DNA from: Clostridiales bacterium
GTDB taxonomy: Bacteria; Bacillota; Clostridia; Lachnospirales; Lachnospiraceae
Assembly (NCBI GenBank): GCA_012839295.1
Contig: DUNO01000041.1
Location: 1 to 64,000 of the forward strand
Direction of reading: 5' to 3'
DNA: 64,000 nt
The notes beneath the pieces are model-generated. The model ran no database searches and was not told where the DNA came from. It saw only the letters and a list, made by a program, of their open reading frames with translations. Made by a program: the position numbers and the translations under genes. Shown piece by piece: positions 17,190 to 53,398 of the stretch (positions are counted from its first letter, which is position 1; every line of letters begins with the position of its first letter).

Positions 17190-17262
17190 TTTTTTTATCC
17201 AAGGGCATGAATTCCCTTATAATTCATAGCTTACCACAATATGATATGGATATGGCAATATA

Positions 17263-17293
17263 CACGGTTGAAGAGATTTAACCGTGATTTTTT
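17263..17293 (+). terminator. Intrinsic terminator downstream of tRNA-Pro
   Basis: CACGGTT (17263-17269) and AACCGTG (17280-17286) form a perfect 7-bp stem followed by ATTTTTT. Confidence 0.75.
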
Positions 17294-17315
17294 AATTTCT
17301 GAAGGAGGTGGGAAT

Positions 17316-18188
17316 ATGATTTTGTCGGCTTCCAGAAGGACGGACATCCCAAGCTATTATTCTGAATGGTTCATGAACCGCCTAAAGGAAGGATATGTAT
17401 TGACCAGAAATCCGATGAACTATCATCAGATCCGCAGAATCGAATTAAACCCCGTAAATATTGAATGTATCGTACTTTGGTCCAAGGATCCCCTGAATAT
17501 GATGAAATACCTGCCAGAAATAGATGGTATGGGATATAAATATTATTTTCAATTTACCCTGACCCCTTATGGAAGGGAGATTGAAAGGTATATCAGGGAT
17601 AAGGAGGAGCTTGTGGATACCTTTCAGAAGCTTTCTGGCATGATCGGGAAGGACCGGGTAGTGTGGCGGTACGATCCGGTTATATTAAATGACCAGCTCA
17701 CCGTCCAATATCATGCGGAGCAGTTTGAACGTCTGTGCCGCCAGTTGCAGGGATATACCGGAACCTGCAATATCAGCTTCTGTGACATCTACAAAAAATT
17801 AAGTAAAGAGGCTAAGGAGCATGTAATCTGGCCGATTTCCGGGCAGCAGATGGATCAGGTGGCAGAAATACTCGTAGCAATTGCAGGAAACTATAATATA
17901 GAGCTAAGGGCTTGCTGTGAAAAGAAGGATCTGGCTAACGCAGGTATCGGGCCGGCTGCCTGTATTGACCGGGAGCTTATAGAGAAAATATGCGGGCATC
18001 CGGTTCAGGCTAAGGCGGATAAGAGCCAGAGGGAGGGCTGCAGCTGCATCCAAAGTACGGATCTTGGCGTTTATAATACCTGCCGGCATGGATGTATCTA
18101 TTGCTATGCCAGCCATAGTGATAAATCCATAAAGCAGAATTGCCTCCGCCACAACCCTCAGGCACCGATCTTAATAGGCGAGGAGTAA
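17316..18188 (+). CDS. DUF1848 family protein (possible iron-sulfur protein)
   Basis: 290 residues starting MILSASRRTDIPSYYSEWF, the hallmark of DUF1848. It contains VLWSKDPLNMM, FQFTLTPYGREIE, VVWRYDPVI and a C-terminal cysteine cluster GVYNTCRHGCIYCYA with the CxxxCxxC spacing of radical-SAM proteins, here unusually at the C-terminus. A second group of Cys lies just before (EGCSCIQ). The function is not established. The ATG at 17316 follows GGAGGTGGG; the longer open frame is not used. It follows tRNA-Pro but is separated by a terminator. Confidence 0.82.
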   Translation: MILSASRRTDIPSYYSEWFMNRLKEGYVLTRNPMNYHQIRRIELNPVNIECIVLWSKDPLNMMKYLPEIDGMGYKYYFQFTLTPYGREIERYIRDKEELVDTFQKLSGMIGKDRVVWRYDPVILNDQLTVQYHAEQFERLCRQLQGYTGTCNISFCDIYKKLSKEAKEHVIWPISGQQMDQVAEILVAIAGNYNIELRACCEKKDLANAGIGPAACIDRELIEKICGHPVQAKADKSQREGCSCIQSTDLGVYNTCRHGCIYCYASHSDKSIKQNCLRHNPQAPILIGEE

Positions 18189-18206: not shown

Positions 18207-18236
18207 TTGACAAAGGGCCGGGTGCTAGAGTATAGT
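18207..18236 (+). promoter_or_regulatory. Promoter of the metNIQ leader transcript
   Basis: TTGACA (18207-18212), 18 bases, TATAGT (18231-18236). The predicted start near 18243 gives a leader of about 400 bases before metN. I see no S-box signature in it. Confidence 0.6.
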
Positions 18237-18339
18237 GTGAAATACAGAGTATTTCATATCCGACACCCCGTGGCCTGACGGCCAAATGTCCGTTATTATA
18301 GAAAACAAACGGGGATAGGAATTACGGAAGGAAACAATT

Positions 18340-18456
18340 ATGGGAACATCATTCAAAGCAATGTATAATAATATGTGTGGTATGTGCAGCATGCCTAAGT
18401 TCCATATTTACATGATAAGTGAATGTGATGTTTTCATGATGCACAAGGAGAGGTAA
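18340..18456 (+). CDS. Methionine-rich leader peptide, 38 aa, candidate attenuator of metNIQ
   Basis: ATG at 18340 is seven bases after GGAAGGA (18326-18332). The 38-residue product has eight methionines, including a Met-Met pair at 33-34, and three cysteines; it begins MGTSFKAMYNNMCGMCSMP. That is about 21 percent Met. It ends three bases before the close of a GGAGAG segment that can pair with two alternative CTCTCC segments downstream, and an intrinsic terminator follows before metN. The layout is that of a peptide whose translation senses charged tRNA-Met. This is an inference; no homologue is known to me. Confidence 0.6.
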   Translation: MGTSFKAMYNNMCGMCSMPKFHIYMISECDVFMMHKER

Positions 18457-18524
18457 TCCTTACTCTCCCTTTGAATGATGGAATATGGTGCAGGAAGCTT
18501 ATCAAGGCTCTCCTGCTTTTTTTT
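18446..18524 (+). terminator. Candidate attenuator: alternative hairpins and terminator before metN
   Basis: The terminator is GCAGGAAGC (18490-18498) with GCT and TCCTGC (18507-18516, one bulge), followed by eight T. Upstream, GGAGAG (18447-18452, the end of the leader ORF) can pair with CTCTCC at 18463-18468; its extended form AGGAGAG (18446-18452) can instead pair with CTCTCCT at 18508-18514 in the terminator's 3' arm. The pairings are mutually exclusive. Transcription would end about 120 bases before metN unless the terminator is disrupted. Confidence 0.65.
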
Positions 18525-18645
18525 CGGATTAGCTTTAGGGAAGGCGATAATAAAACATGCAATAATAGAAAATGTAACAGGAAAGGCTGTAATGTTAGAG
18601 CATGTAATAATAGAAATAAACACAGGATCTGAACGGAGGTAAAAC

Positions 18646-19662
18646 ATGGGGAATGGATATCCGATTGTCCAGCTTGTAGGGCTGGGCAAGGTGTTTCAAG
18701 GTAAGAACAATGTAGTAAAAGCCCTCGACAATATTAACCTAACGATTAACCAGGGGGAGATATTCGGAATTATCGGGCTCAGTGGTGCCGGTAAAAGTAC
18801 CCTGGTACGCTGTATTAATTTTTTGGAAAAGCCAACCTCGGGGTCGGTGATTTTTGACGGTGCGGATTTGGGAGCCCTTTCTGAGAGGGATTTGTTAAGG
18901 GCGAGGCAGTCCATGGGGATGATCTTCCAGCAGTTTAACCTGTTGATGCAAAGGAATGCCCTCCAAAATATCTGCTTCCCCCTGGAAATCGCAGGTATCC
19001 CAAAGAAGGAGGCAAGGCAACGGGCGATGGAGCTTTTGGAGGTGGTTGGCCTGGTGGATAAAGCGAAGGCTTATCCGGCCCAGCTGTCCGGCGGACAGAA
19101 GCAGCGAGTTGCAATTGCCAGGGCATTGGCGACGAATCCTAAGGTGCTGCTCTGTGATGAGGCCACCAGTGCACTCGATCCGACGACAACCCGTTCCATC
19201 CTCAACCTGCTTCGGGAGATTAACCAGAAGCTTGGTATCACAGTGATTGTCATTACCCATGAAATGAGCGTTATTGAAGAAATCTGCCACCGTGTTGCAA
19301 TCATTGACCAAAGCCATATCGCGGAGCTGGGAGAGGTAGAGGAGGTCTTTGTAAGGCCAAAATCCAAGATAGCAAAGCAGCTGGTATTTTCCGGTGAGTC
19401 CCATATAGATGTCTTTGAAGGAGAATATAAATGCCGCATTATCTTTGATGGAAGAACCTCCTTCGAGCCTGTGATTGCCAATATGGTCCTGGAGTGCAAA
19501 ACTCCGGTTAACATCCTGTTTGCAGACACCAAGGATATTGACGGGAAGGCATTTGGCCAGATGGTAATCCAGCTTCCAAACGATGAAACAGGAAGAAAGC
19601 GTATTATGAACTATCTTAATGTCAATGGGATAACCTATGAGGAGGTGAAGGGCGATGCTTAG
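18646..19662 (+). CDS. metN: Methionine ABC transporter, ATP-binding protein
   Basis: 338 residues. Walker A GLSGAGKST, Q-loop FQQFNLL, signature LSGGQKQR, Walker B VLLCDEATSALD, H-loop VITHEM, then a C-terminal NIL domain (about 260-338) that binds methionine and mediates trans-inhibition in MetN proteins. It energises MetNIQ import of L-/D-methionine. The ATG follows GGAGGTAAAAC. It overlaps metI by eight bases. The leader upstream carries a Met-rich ORF and terminator. Confidence 0.94.
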   Translation: MGNGYPIVQLVGLGKVFQGKNNVVKALDNINLTINQGEIFGIIGLSGAGKSTLVRCINFLEKPTSGSVIFDGADLGALSERDLLRARQSMGMIFQQFNLLMQRNALQNICFPLEIAGIPKKEARQRAMELLEVVGLVDKAKAYPAQLSGGQKQRVAIARALATNPKVLLCDEATSALDPTTTRSILNLLREINQKLGITVIVITHEMSVIEEICHRVAIIDQSHIAELGEVEEVFVRPKSKIAKQLVFSGESHIDVFEGEYKCRIIFDGRTSFEPVIANMVLECKTPVNILFADTKDIDGKAFGQMVIQLPNDETGRKRIMNYLNVNGITYEEVKGDA

Positions 19663-20314
19663 TGGAGCTGTAATTAAGATGCTGGGGACTGGAATTTTAG
19701 AATCCCTATATATGATTTTTGTCTCATCACTGATCGCTTATGTGATCGGGCTGCCCTTAGGCGTACTGCTGGTCGTAACGGATAAGGAGGGCATTGCACC
19801 GTTTCCGGCCTTGAATAAGGCCTTAGGCGCTATCGTGAATTTTGTCAGGTCTGTCCCATTTATTATCCTGCTGATTGCGGTCATGCCGTTTACCAGATGG
19901 CTCATTGGTACGACCCTGGGGCCTTCTGCGGTAATACCGCCCCTGATCATTGGATCGGCCCCCTACATTGCCAGGCTGGTGGAGTCATCCCTTAAGGAAG
20001 TGGATAAAGGTGTAATTGAAGCAGCCCAAAGCATGGGTGCAAGCCCGATGAATATCATTTTAAAGGTGCTGATTCCTGAGGCGATGCCCTCACTGATTAT
20101 CGGGGCAGCAATTGCAGTTACGACGATTTTAAGCTATTCTGCCATGGCAGGCATCGTCGGCGGAGGCGGACTGGGTGACATCGCGATCCGTTACGGGTAT
20201 TACCGGTATCAGACCGGAATCATGTTTGTCACAGTCATTATATTGGTTTTAATTGTACAGCTAATCCAGGAGGTAGGTGAACGCTGGATGAGGCGTGCAG
20301 ATAAACGTTTATAA
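19655..20314 (+). CDS. metI: Methionine ABC transporter, permease
   Basis: 219 residues with five predicted membrane helices. The binding-protein-dependent permease EAA loop is visible as EAAQSMGASPMNIILKVLIPEAMPS (seen in two parts, residues 124-148). It begins inside the 3' end of metN and is followed 37 bases later by metQ, so the three form one operon. Confidence 0.93.
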   Translation: MLSGAVIKMLGTGILESLYMIFVSSLIAYVIGLPLGVLLVVTDKEGIAPFPALNKALGAIVNFVRSVPFIILLIAVMPFTRWLIGTTLGPSAVIPPLIIGSAPYIARLVESSLKEVDKGVIEAAQSMGASPMNIILKVLIPEAMPSLIIGAAIAVTTILSYSAMAGIVGGGGLGDIAIRYGYYRYQTGIMFVTVIILVLIVQLIQEVGERWMRRADKRL

Positions 20315-20351
20315 AAAGCGAGCCATAAATGGCGGGAAAAGGAGGAGCATT

Positions 20352-21164
20352 ATGAAGAAAATTATTGCAGTATTATTAGTATTAGCCTTAGCCGTGGCAA
20401 CGTTTACCGGCTGCGGGACGAAGAATCAGGGGGATAAGAAAATTGTGGTAGGAGCCAGTGCAACCCCCCATGCGGAAATTCTGGAGCAGGCAAGGCCGGT
20501 TCTGGAGGCGGAGGGCTATGAGCTCGAAATCATCGTTTACCAGGATTATGTACAGCCAAACCTGGCGCTGGACAGCGGTGACCTGGATGCAAACTATTTC
20601 CAGCATAAGCCATACCTGGACCAGTTTAATGAGGAAAATAAGACGGATTTAGTGTCCGCCGGTGTCATCCACTATGAGCCCTATGGGGTTTATCCTGGAA
20701 AGACGGCCTCCTTTGATGCCCTTACGGAAGGTGCACAGATCGCGGTGCCAAATGATGCCTCCAATGAGGCAAGGGCACTTCTCTTACTGGAAGCGAACGG
20801 ACTGATTAAGCTCAGGGAGGATGCGGGCCTGAGCGCAACAAAGAATGACATTGTGGAAAATCCCTTGAAGCTTGAAATAATCGAAATTGAAGCTGCCCAG
20901 CTGGCGCGCTCTTTGCAGGACGTTAACATGGCCGTTATCAATGGAAATTATGCAATCCAGGCCGGATTAAATGTAGCGAAGGATGCGATAGCCTTTGAGG
21001 GCAAGGACTCTGAGGCAGCCGAAACCTACGGCAACATCATTGCTGTTAAAGCTGGCAATGAAACAAGGAAGGACATCAAGGCTCTTTTGGCAGCCCTCCA
21101 AAGTGATGCTGTCAAAAAATATATTGAGGACACATATGACAGTGCCGTGGTACCTAAATTCTAA
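20352..21164 (+). CDS. metQ: Methionine-binding lipoprotein
   Basis: 270 residues. A lipoprotein signal (KKIIAVLLVLALAVATFTGC) ends in the lipobox Cys at residue 20. The mature part is NlpA/MetQ: KIVVGASATPHAEILEQARP, YVQPNLALDSGDLDANYFQH, GVYPGKTASF, ALLLLEANGLIKLR. It captures methionine outside the membrane and delivers it to MetNI. ATG 20352 has GGAGGAG seven bases upstream; the longer frame from 20295 lacks a signal sequence at its N-terminus. Confidence 0.94.
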   Translation: MKKIIAVLLVLALAVATFTGCGTKNQGDKKIVVGASATPHAEILEQARPVLEAEGYELEIIVYQDYVQPNLALDSGDLDANYFQHKPYLDQFNEENKTDLVSAGVIHYEPYGVYPGKTASFDALTEGAQIAVPNDASNEARALLLLEANGLIKLREDAGLSATKNDIVENPLKLEIIEIEAAQLARSLQDVNMAVINGNYAIQAGLNVAKDAIAFEGKDSEAAETYGNIIAVKAGNETRKDIKALLAALQSDAVKKYIEDTYDSAVVPKF

Positions 21165-21389: not shown

Positions 21390-22502
21390 ATGAAGAAGCT
21401 TTTCTTTTATAAACGTATTTACTTAATAATACTGATTCCTATTTCCATAGCCCTGACCTTAGTGGCAAGGAATAATCTTTATTTTGCAGAAAACATCTAT
21501 GCCAAGCACATATATAAAGGGATTTCACAGCCCATATCAACAATATTTGGACTGGTGCCCTTCTCTGTTGCGGAGGTTATCATCTTTGTATTTCCTGTTG
21601 CATGCCTGATTTGGGTTATAGCCTTTATCATAAGGCTGGTCCGGTTCCGGGAAAAGCGTAAGCAGATATTTTTAAAGGGTCTGTTAAATATTCTCTGCCT
21701 TGTAAGTGTTATCCTGTTTTTATACACAATGCTTGCCGGGATCAATTATTACCGTGCCACCTTTAGCACCTACTCGAACCTGGAGATCAGGGAATCGCCG
21801 GAGGATGAGCTGTACGCACTGACAAAGAGCCTTGCCCTGCAGGCAAATGAATTTCGTGACAAGACTACGGCCAGGGATGGGGAGGGAGTATTCCAGCTGT
21901 CCTTAAGCTACTATGAAACGGCAGCCCTGGCAAACGAAGCCTTTACCAGCCTTTCCAAGGAATATCCCATTCTGGGCGGCTCCTACGCCCCGCCTAAGCC
22001 GGTAATGCTGTCAAGGCTGATGTCCTATGCTGAGATTACAGGTATTTTCTTCCCCTTTACGACGGAAGCAAATGTGAATGTTGATATACCTGATTATAAC
22101 ATACCGGTCACAATGCTGCATGAGCTGGCACATCTCCGGGGCTTTATGCGGGAGGATGAAGCCAACTTTATCGCATATCTTGCAGGTATGGAATCAGGGA
22201 ATGCGGACTTAAATTATAGCAGCACGATGCTTGCTTTAGTGATAGCGGGCAATGCATTGTATGAACAAAATCCGGATCTGTATTTTTCCGTCAGGGAGCT
22301 TTACTCTGAGGGGGTCATAAGGGATATCAGGGCAAATTCGACCTATTGGCAGCAGTATGATGATACGGCAGTCAGCACAATCTCTAACCATATCAACGAT
22401 ACCTACCTAAAGGCGAATGCCCAGGAGGATGGAGTCAAAAGCTACGGCCGCATGCTGGATCTGCTCTTGGCTAAATTCAGGAAGGACCATTCAGAGAATT
22501 AA
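21390..22502 (+). CDS. DUF3810 membrane protein with HExxH motif
   Basis: 370 residues. The N-terminal ~115 residues contain three hydrophobic segments (about 12-28, 58-82, 96-118). The external or cytosolic domain carries HELAHLRGF (about residue 246) followed by REDEANFIAYLA, i.e. HExxH plus a downstream Glu, the pattern of gluzincin-type metallopeptidases. Members are annotated DUF3810; substrate is unknown. The ribosome site (GGGGGCAG) is modest. It stands as a single gene with a strong terminator after it. Confidence 0.82.
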   Translation: MKKLFFYKRIYLIILIPISIALTLVARNNLYFAENIYAKHIYKGISQPISTIFGLVPFSVAEVIIFVFPVACLIWVIAFIIRLVRFREKRKQIFLKGLLNILCLVSVILFLYTMLAGINYYRATFSTYSNLEIRESPEDELYALTKSLALQANEFRDKTTARDGEGVFQLSLSYYETAALANEAFTSLSKEYPILGGSYAPPKPVMLSRLMSYAEITGIFFPFTTEANVNVDIPDYNIPVTMLHELAHLRGFMREDEANFIAYLAGMESGNADLNYSSTMLALVIAGNALYEQNPDLYFSVRELYSEGVIRDIRANSTYWQQYDDTAVSTISNHINDTYLKANAQEDGVKSYGRMLDLLLAKFRKDHSEN

Positions 22503-39632: not shown

Positions 39633-39691
39633 AGGCATGCAAAGAAAATTATATATGACAGGTGAACAGCTTGCTGATTCATCTCATACTA

Positions 39692-39794
39692 TGCTAGGGG
39701 AGCCGAGGCTGAGAGGTGTGGAACTTTCACACTGACCCTTACTACTTGATCCGGGTAATACCGGCGGAAGGAAGCAATCAAGTGGCCCCTCCTA
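39692..39794 (+). promoter_or_regulatory. TPP riboswitch (THI element)
   Basis: The conserved parts are plain: GGGGAGCC then GGCTGAGAGGTG, GACCCTTACTACTTGATC, CGGGTAATACCGGCGGAAGGAAG, closing with GGCCCCT. The thiT ribosome site AAGGAGG (39804-39810) can be sequestered by CCTCCT (39788-39793), which overlaps the 3' strand of P1. Thiamine pyrophosphate should control thiT, most likely at translation; the precise switch logic needs folding. Confidence 0.96.
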
Positions 39795-53211: not shown

Positions 53212-53398
53212 ACAGAAAAATTCCTGGGATGTTCGATACTCCTGTTATTTTGAACCTACATCATTTAAAAAGGGATTCCTATATTCTTAAGTGGATGTCA
53301 GGCCATCGTTTGCAGTGGAAGGCAGAAGCTTATGTGCGGTTACCCACCTAGCTTGGGCTAGGAGTCAAAATACAGGAAACGGCATATCCGGGTATTAT
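53212..53398 (+). ncRNA. ssrS: Probable 6S RNA
   Basis: About 187 bases between a consensus promoter and a strong terminator, with no credible coding frame. The ends form a closing stem (AATTCCTGGGATGTTC, 53219-53234, with GGCATATCCGGGTATT, 53381-53396). The interior has long imperfect helices and segments I associate with clostridial 6S RNA (TTTGAACCTACATC, TACCCACCTAGC / GCTAGGAGTCAAAA). 6S RNA mimics an open promoter and sequesters SigA-RNA polymerase in stationary phase. A covariance-model search was not possible. Confidence 0.72.

Follow-up and report, generated by a model that had tools for sequence, protein, structure and literature searches.

A Met- and Cys-codon leader peptide and a probable transcription attenuator ahead of metNIQ in a Lachnospiraceae bacterium

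The metNIQ operon of a Lachnospiraceae bacterium is very probably under a ribosome-mediated transcription attenuator that would sense charged tRNA-Met and, probably, charged tRNA-Cys. The operon lies in a 64,000-nucleotide stretch of DNA (contig DUNO01000041.1, positions 1 to 64,000; hereafter the window). A sequence-only reading of this stretch had placed a promoter, a ribosome site, a 38-codon ORF with eight Met and a terminator upstream of metN, all of which are where it put them, and had proposed a ribosome-stalling attenuator that depends on Met codons. That proposal is supported: comparison among relatives shows conservation of the enriched codons, their frame, the promoter, the terminator, the linkage to metN and the complementarity of the antiterminator arms, and an antiterminator is predicted in two sequence types. 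The features of the locus are as follows.

18207-18236, + strand: promoter TTGACA-18-TATAGT, with 11 of 12 consensus bases (pattern scan).
18326-18332, + strand: ribosome-binding site GGAAGGA of the leader ORF (sequence; an SD-like motif also precedes the leader ORFs of relatives).
18340-18456, + strand: leader ORF of 38 codons, MGTSFKAMYNNMCGMCSMPKFHIYMISECDVFMMHKER, with 8 Met (M33 and M34 adjacent) and 3 Cys.
18361-18393, + strand: conserved run of Met and Cys codons from M8 to M18, the putative sensing codons (alignment and stall model).
18340-18350, + strand: 5' arm of the candidate helix H1, covering the leader start codon and paired with 18427-18437.
18427-18437, + strand: 3' arm of H1, with bases shared with the 5' side of the antiterminator.
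18403-18427, + strand: local hairpin S1, CATATTTAC (18403-18411) with GTGAATGTG (18419-18427), GATAA in the loop (folding and comparison).
18414-18420, + strand: predicted antiterminator closing arm GATAAGT (folding and comparison).
18414-18503, + strand: predicted antiterminator hairpin, closing helix 18414-18420 : 18497-18503, GATAAGT:GCTTATC (folding and comparison).
18447-18468, + strand: predicted antiterminator tip, GGAGAG : CTCTCC (folding).
18490-18524, + strand: intrinsic terminator, hairpin 18490-18516 and eight T at 18517-18524 (folding).
18646-19662, + strand: metN, ABC ATPase with NIL domain (domain search).
19655-20314, + strand: metI, permease, NF008049 above cut-off (NCBIfam search).
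20352-21164, + strand: metQ, NlpA/MetQ lipoprotein, its ATG at 20352 inside a longer mechanical ORF, 20295-21164 (domain search).

Models of Met transporters are the best matches of MetN and MetQ, yet both proteins score below the curated cut-offs, and the substrate specificity of metNIQ is therefore assigned from the family. The neighbors of the operon are a DUF1848 gene (17241-18188) and a DUF3810 gene (21390-22502). Among the genus leaders, a TTGACA-17/18-TATANT promoter was found upstream of 22 of the 23 leader ORFs examined. In the window, the stretch from the -10 box to the leader ORF contains a dispersed repeat of about 63 bases (18232-18305), and some 20 further partial copies are present in the same genome, some of them head to tail (e.g., on contigs C6, C12 and C72). 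Because the distance from promoter to ORF is about 50 bases greater than in the nearest relative, G029, the repeat looks inserted in the 5' UTR. Elsewhere in the window, Rfam places a TPP riboswitch (39686-39789) and a 6S RNA (53218-53398) above the gathering score.

When 34 genomes of the window's genus were searched at the DNA level, the leader itself, and not merely metN, was recovered in relatives; 20 of the first loci found had metN with the leader region either upstream or lost at a contig end. A covariance model built from 18 genus leaders matches 27 of the 34 genomes at E < 1e-9, 18 of which are the model builders and nine of which are new. Close MetN orthologues (at least 75% identity) were found by a MetN search in 28 genus genomes. 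Positions compared by eye put the leader directly upstream of metN in all 27 of the genomes that could be tested, the 28th (G016) being untestable with metN at base 12 of its contig. No leader was found at three distant MetN copies of 48-53% identity (G013, G009 and a second copy in G023) or in the four genus genomes without a MetN match. Named records with the element include Mobilitalea sibirica and Herbinix, both members of the Lachnospiraceae.

Several other matches were set aside. The genus model gave two weak matches in the family (G241 and G294, E about 0.01), both away from the metN loci of the family; four matches from a collection scan (L069, L073, L083 and L085) come from unrelated taxa and were judged to be chance by taxonomy alone; and a fifth, L074, was dismissed when no leader was found there. 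The record SHOH01000183.1 (L075), titled Anaerolineaceae bacterium MAG4, has a genus-type leader. It is the same size (4018) as contig C167 of G008, a genome of the window's genus, and its title or binning looks doubtful.

Met genes of Firmicutes are usually controlled by S-box or T-box RNAs. A scan for them, suggested in the sequence-only reading, found neither the S-box (RF00162) nor the T-box (RF00230) nor any other Rfam family in the window leader at gathering thresholds; relaxing the limit to E = 10 brought up just two matches, both to eukaryotic families and far below their cut-offs. A single S-box, ahead of metK, was found in the window genome, along with 13 T-boxes that score above cut-off. 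Therefore, both standard RNAs are in use in this bacterium, yet not for metNIQ.

MetN orthologues are present in 214 of 397 family genomes, and the best 88 metN loci outside the genus were taken as the sister-genus set. To count as a strict leader, an ORF had to be 15-60 codons long, follow an SD motif and have a Met share of 15% or more, with no fewer than five Met codons after the start. Such a leader is present in 25 of these best 88 loci, compared with none of 88 on the reverse strand; each of 20 shuffles likewise gave none. When the count was made stricter, Met came first among all amino acids (21 loci), and Arg was next (7). A terminator precedes metN in all 25 of the loci with a leader, and one was found within 400 bases in 26 of the 63 loci that have no Met-rich leader under the strict test. 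Met enrichment and a terminator in homologous metN leaders had been named beforehand as a test of the attenuator, and both are present in the genus and in these 25 sister loci. Examples of sister leaders are those that begin MNQQTTMQMNMCMMNDMCMMMCRMLMC and MFAANTMNNCMMMAMCGMMMVMCRMFWC. One locus, L105, has a Clostridiales-1 RNA (RF01699, 121.6 bits) at 1258-1429, between its Met-rich leader and metN and on the metN strand.

At the Rfam gathering score, a T-box on the metN strand lies directly upstream of metN in two of the 88 sister loci (L099 and L109), and no S-box was found in any of the 88. A search below the cut-off covered 11 genomes among the best 28 sister loci without a strict leader. 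With places compared by eye, it put a T-box ahead of metN in three of them, namely G098 and G147, which hold the L099 and L109 loci, and G403, whose T-box scores 87 bits against a cut-off of 93. Judged by these matches, a T-box is present in place of the leader at metN in a few relatives. In other families of the class, one of 40 high-scoring metN loci (one partial row, G581, being passed over) has a strict leader, L201, and three of the 40 pass a loose test, including L211, which has a T-box; a T-box was found ahead of metN in three of the 20 loci searched with Rfam. Eight of the 128 loci in the two sets have fewer than 600 bases upstream. The Met/Cys-rich leader of L201 begins MRTNVSAYLNMNASDMCLSDMYMCMCMSMP, and two loci of the same family, L205 and L206, have T-boxes at this place.

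The Met richness of the window leader ORF is not chance; the Met share of the long ORFs in the window is 2.6%, and the probability of at least seven Met in 37 residues is 4.6e-5. The peptide core in the genus is MRTSxxxMCxNMCGMCSMP, with MRTSxxxMCNMxxMCGMCxMCxMP in a second group and MRTSFAVMCNTMCSMxMCCM in a third. The sequence-only reading had missed that Cys codons are conserved as well (MCGMC). As far as the sequences tell, metNIQ has the leader ORF rich in cognate codons that marks an attenuator.

The Cys codons raise the possibility that the leader senses mainly cysteine, with Met secondary, and that metNIQ is a general sulfur amino-acid importer or Met a source of Cys. In agreement with this, Cys makes up 12.8% of the residues of genus-type leaders and 10.2% of those of sister-type leaders, and the available text on the Streptomyces metL leader also has a CMCRRMC motif (PMC8079986). 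However, in two alignments of eight leaders each, every core Met column is invariant, while Tyr, Gly, Leu, Phe or Arg can take the place of Cys in the Cys columns, and some sister leaders have two Cys versus 11 Met. We consider it unlikely that cysteine is the main signal, and a leader that reads Met and probably also Cys codons is the reading followed here.

Beyond the MP of the core the peptides of relatives diverge, and the total length of the leader ranges from 19 to 46 residues. The stop codon comes before or within GATAGNTGA in 12 of 22 genus leaders; seven, including that of the window, continue in the window frame, and three end elsewhere. By this comparison, the second half of the window leader ORF is no fixed peptide, and the adjacent pair M33-M34 is outside the conserved core. 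Since the leader ends of relatives differ in this way, the near-invariant downstream block GATARRTGAATGTGRTGTTTTC must be conserved as RNA. This block is almost invariant across the genus, beyond what antiterminator pairing needs, as it might be if it were the aptamer of a so far undescribed riboswitch that binds Met, SAM or a different sulfur compound and the ORF were incidental. However, the ATG triplets of the core are distributed 119:2:1 between the leader frame and the other two frames in genus leaders, while the Cys codons TGC and TGT are used 48:47. (We preferred this count to a test of the length from start to core, which is in frame by construction.) In addition, the sister genera share the Met-rich leader design on other RNA sequences, and there is, as indicated above, no Rfam match. 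A riboswitch at this position is, in our opinion, quite improbable, and what follows treats the region as part of the attenuator.

The terminator was not reported by a pattern scan, whose rule forbids bulges, and the evidence for it is folding. An intrinsic terminator was matched between the leader ORF and the first gene in 24 of 25 genus loci. RNAalifold, applied to the genus leader in full, recovered the terminator together with a few weak pairs in the leader, and targeted tests were then used. Fragments that begin at GATA and stop where the terminator 5' arm ends fold as one long hairpin in the genus loci. The helix that closes it occurs as GATAAG(T):(G)CTTATC, GATAGG:CTTATC, GATAG:CTATC, GATAG:CTGTC and GACGG:CTGTC, i.e., with matched changes on both sides. 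Its predicted probability is at least 0.88 in 23 of 24 genus loci, and the mean over all 24 is 0.94 versus 0.67 with shuffled interiors. The exception, L052 (0.03), is one in which we believe the script took a wrong register. Since the predicted antiterminator occupies the top of the terminator stem and the loop (18497-18503), the two would exclude each other, as complementarity and folding suggest for an attenuator.

The sequence-only reading had seen a different switch, in which AGGAGAG (18446-18452) pairs either with CTCTCC (18463-18468) or with CTCTCCT (18508-18514) in the terminator 3' arm. All three elements are present. However, CTCTCC is in the terminator 3' arm of only two of 14 pattern-matched genus terminators, including that of the window, and pairing with that arm is not conserved and does not hold up as the switch. 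The first pairing exists, not as the switch itself but as the predicted tip of the antiterminator 18414-18503, and this resolves the concern in that reading that such a pairing would not by itself block the terminator.

The sister-type leaders appear to reach the same end with other sequences. In 11 leaders aligned downstream, an arm TGTATGGATTGTGATT is complementary over 16 pairs to GGTCGCAAGTCTGTGCA in the terminator 5' arm and loop, with 90.9% of 175 cells paired versus 22-48% when slid. It shows one two-sided change, and column shuffles are not exceeded, so that chance is not rejected for this pairing. The terminator of these leaders has six compensated pairs, and at most one of 500 shuffles equals it on any measure. 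A sister-type RNA model matches 19 of the 397 family genomes, 11 of them model builders, and all 19 matches are just upstream of metN.

Folded to equilibrium without a ribosome, positions 18391-18522 give S1 plus the terminator at -39.0 kcal/mol versus -30.4 kcal/mol with the closing helix forced; thus, the antiterminator would have to win kinetically. When up to 28 extra upstream bases are included, S1 and other local hairpins compete, and only some loci keep the closing helix in their fold of lowest energy; in the window, it is absent from that fold until the transcript reaches 18506. One S1 pair changes among A-U, G-U and G-C in relatives, and S1 is likely to protect the antiterminator arm. 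H1 is paired in 96.5% of 171 cells, compared with 31-70% when slid. It is largely invariant, with two two-sided cells, and shuffles are not exceeded, so its role is one that we infer. The bases of the H1 3' arm are also in the 5' side of the antiterminator, and therefore the two compete. By analogy with the classical 1:2 pairing, S1 and H1 would hold back the antiterminator arm when no ribosome is stalled.

Ribosome position was modeled with a simple footprint of 16 bases ahead of the P site, and the probability of the closing helix was the readout. In the window, the predicted values are 0.31 at M8, 0.00 at M12, 0.10 at M15 and 0.98 at M18, so only M18 works well in this model; the value is 0 at M25, M33, M34 and the stop, and the adjacent pair M33-M34 is probably not the sensor. 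For 22 genus-type leaders, the last core Met gives at least 0.75 in 16 and less than 0.5 in six, and the 116 core Met positions together average 0.54. With the ribosome at the stop, the modeled helix is 0 in 21 of the 22, L039 (0.99) being the other. The 13 sister-type leaders average 0.79 on stalling, and seven of them have 0 at the stop. In the remaining six, as in L039, the stop precedes the antiterminator arm by 11-15 bases and the modeled ribosome leaves the arm uncovered, and in these six the model does not separate the stall and stop states.

These predictions suggest the following scheme. When Met is plentiful, the leading ribosome would reach the leader stop and cover or disrupt the 5' side of the antiterminator; the terminator at 18490-18524 would then form, and metNIQ would be off. 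Under a shortage of Met (or Cys), the ribosome would stall in the MCGMCSM run, best at M18, where it would hinder S1, while the same or a queued ribosome would hinder H1. The freed GATAAGT...TTTTCAT could then pair with the region up to GCTTATC and remove the top of the terminator stem, and with the terminator lost, transcription would continue into metNIQ. H1 covers the leader start codon, so translation of the leader may be gated, and one could imagine that attenuation works mainly through translation or Rho and not through the intrinsic terminator. However, the intrinsic terminator and its T run are conserved in both the genus and the sister leaders, and such a mechanism is very improbable. 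Hardly credible is a functional small Met/Cys-rich protein, for example, a metal-binding one, that merely happens to precede metN: it would have in its favor the MCGMC-type motif and the conserved ribosome site, but the C-terminal half varies in frame and length as described, Cys positions are replaced in several relatives (L057 keeps one Cys) and a terminator follows every one of the 25 sister leaders.

The his, trp, thr and leu attenuators of Proteobacteria have a run of cognate codons, a terminator, a mutually exclusive antiterminator and a protector pairing that forms without stalling. The attenuator proposed for the window shares the codon run, the terminator, the excluding antiterminator and, presumably, the protector pairing. 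It differs in having Met and Cys codons, in an antiterminator that would pair with the terminator top and in one candidate protector helix that includes the leader start codon.

The sequence-only reading had called the element possibly undescribed. This stands for the lineage, in that none of the titles and abstracts listed by full-text literature searching, with subscription journals mostly outside its reach, describes a Met leader peptide for Lachnospiraceae, but not for bacteria at large, because predictions of Met leaders upstream of met-transport genes exist for Streptomyces (PMC8079986) and Campylobacter (PMC11955535), as the available parts of both papers state. In Streptomyces lividans TK24, a metL leader peptide ahead of metNIQ was proposed to act in an attenuator (PMC8079986, portions available). 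Like the window leader, it is a short ORF that contains Met and Cys codons, ends in ...CMCRRMCAF and precedes the genes of this importer; unlike it, the transcript is leaderless and a typical Rho-independent terminator is missing, according to the same portions, which describe no functional test of the leader, and no relation between the metL peptide given there and the Lachnospiraceae leaders is visible by eye. In Campylobacter jejuni, which belongs to another phylum, the accessible sections of PMC11955535 propose the Met leader peptides MetL, with a start-site signal in Ribo-seq data, and CJsORF19 (MMYQMR), which is far shorter than the window leader and precedes the gene for a D-Met transport binding protein; those sections mention no antiterminator. 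Firmicutes hisS and hisZ have leader-peptide attenuators in place of T-boxes, and these differ from that of the window in having His codons and aminoacyl-tRNA synthetase genes (PMC2965389, as far as its available text goes). Leaders with Cys codons have been described elsewhere (excerpts of PMC1262725 and PMC8632094).

For the Lachnospiraceae as a whole, we suggest only tentatively that there is a family of leader attenuators that reads Met and Cys codons as one sulfur-starvation signal, that has several RNA switch sequences (GATAAG:CTTATC, TGTATGG:CTGTGCA and others) and that has apparently traded places with T-boxes at this operon; the start-codon helix would itself gate translation of the leader in the window's genus.

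In conclusion, these results suggest that some members of a large Firmicute family sense the Met supply for import by ribosome stalling and not by the S-box or T-box that one would usually expect at such genes, while the window genome keeps an S-box for metK. They add two worked-out sequence types, without a match in the Rfam release searched, and they provide what appears to be a clear case in which related genomes have one RNA control in place of another at a single operon. They also offer a prediction, namely that Met and Cys would be sensed together.
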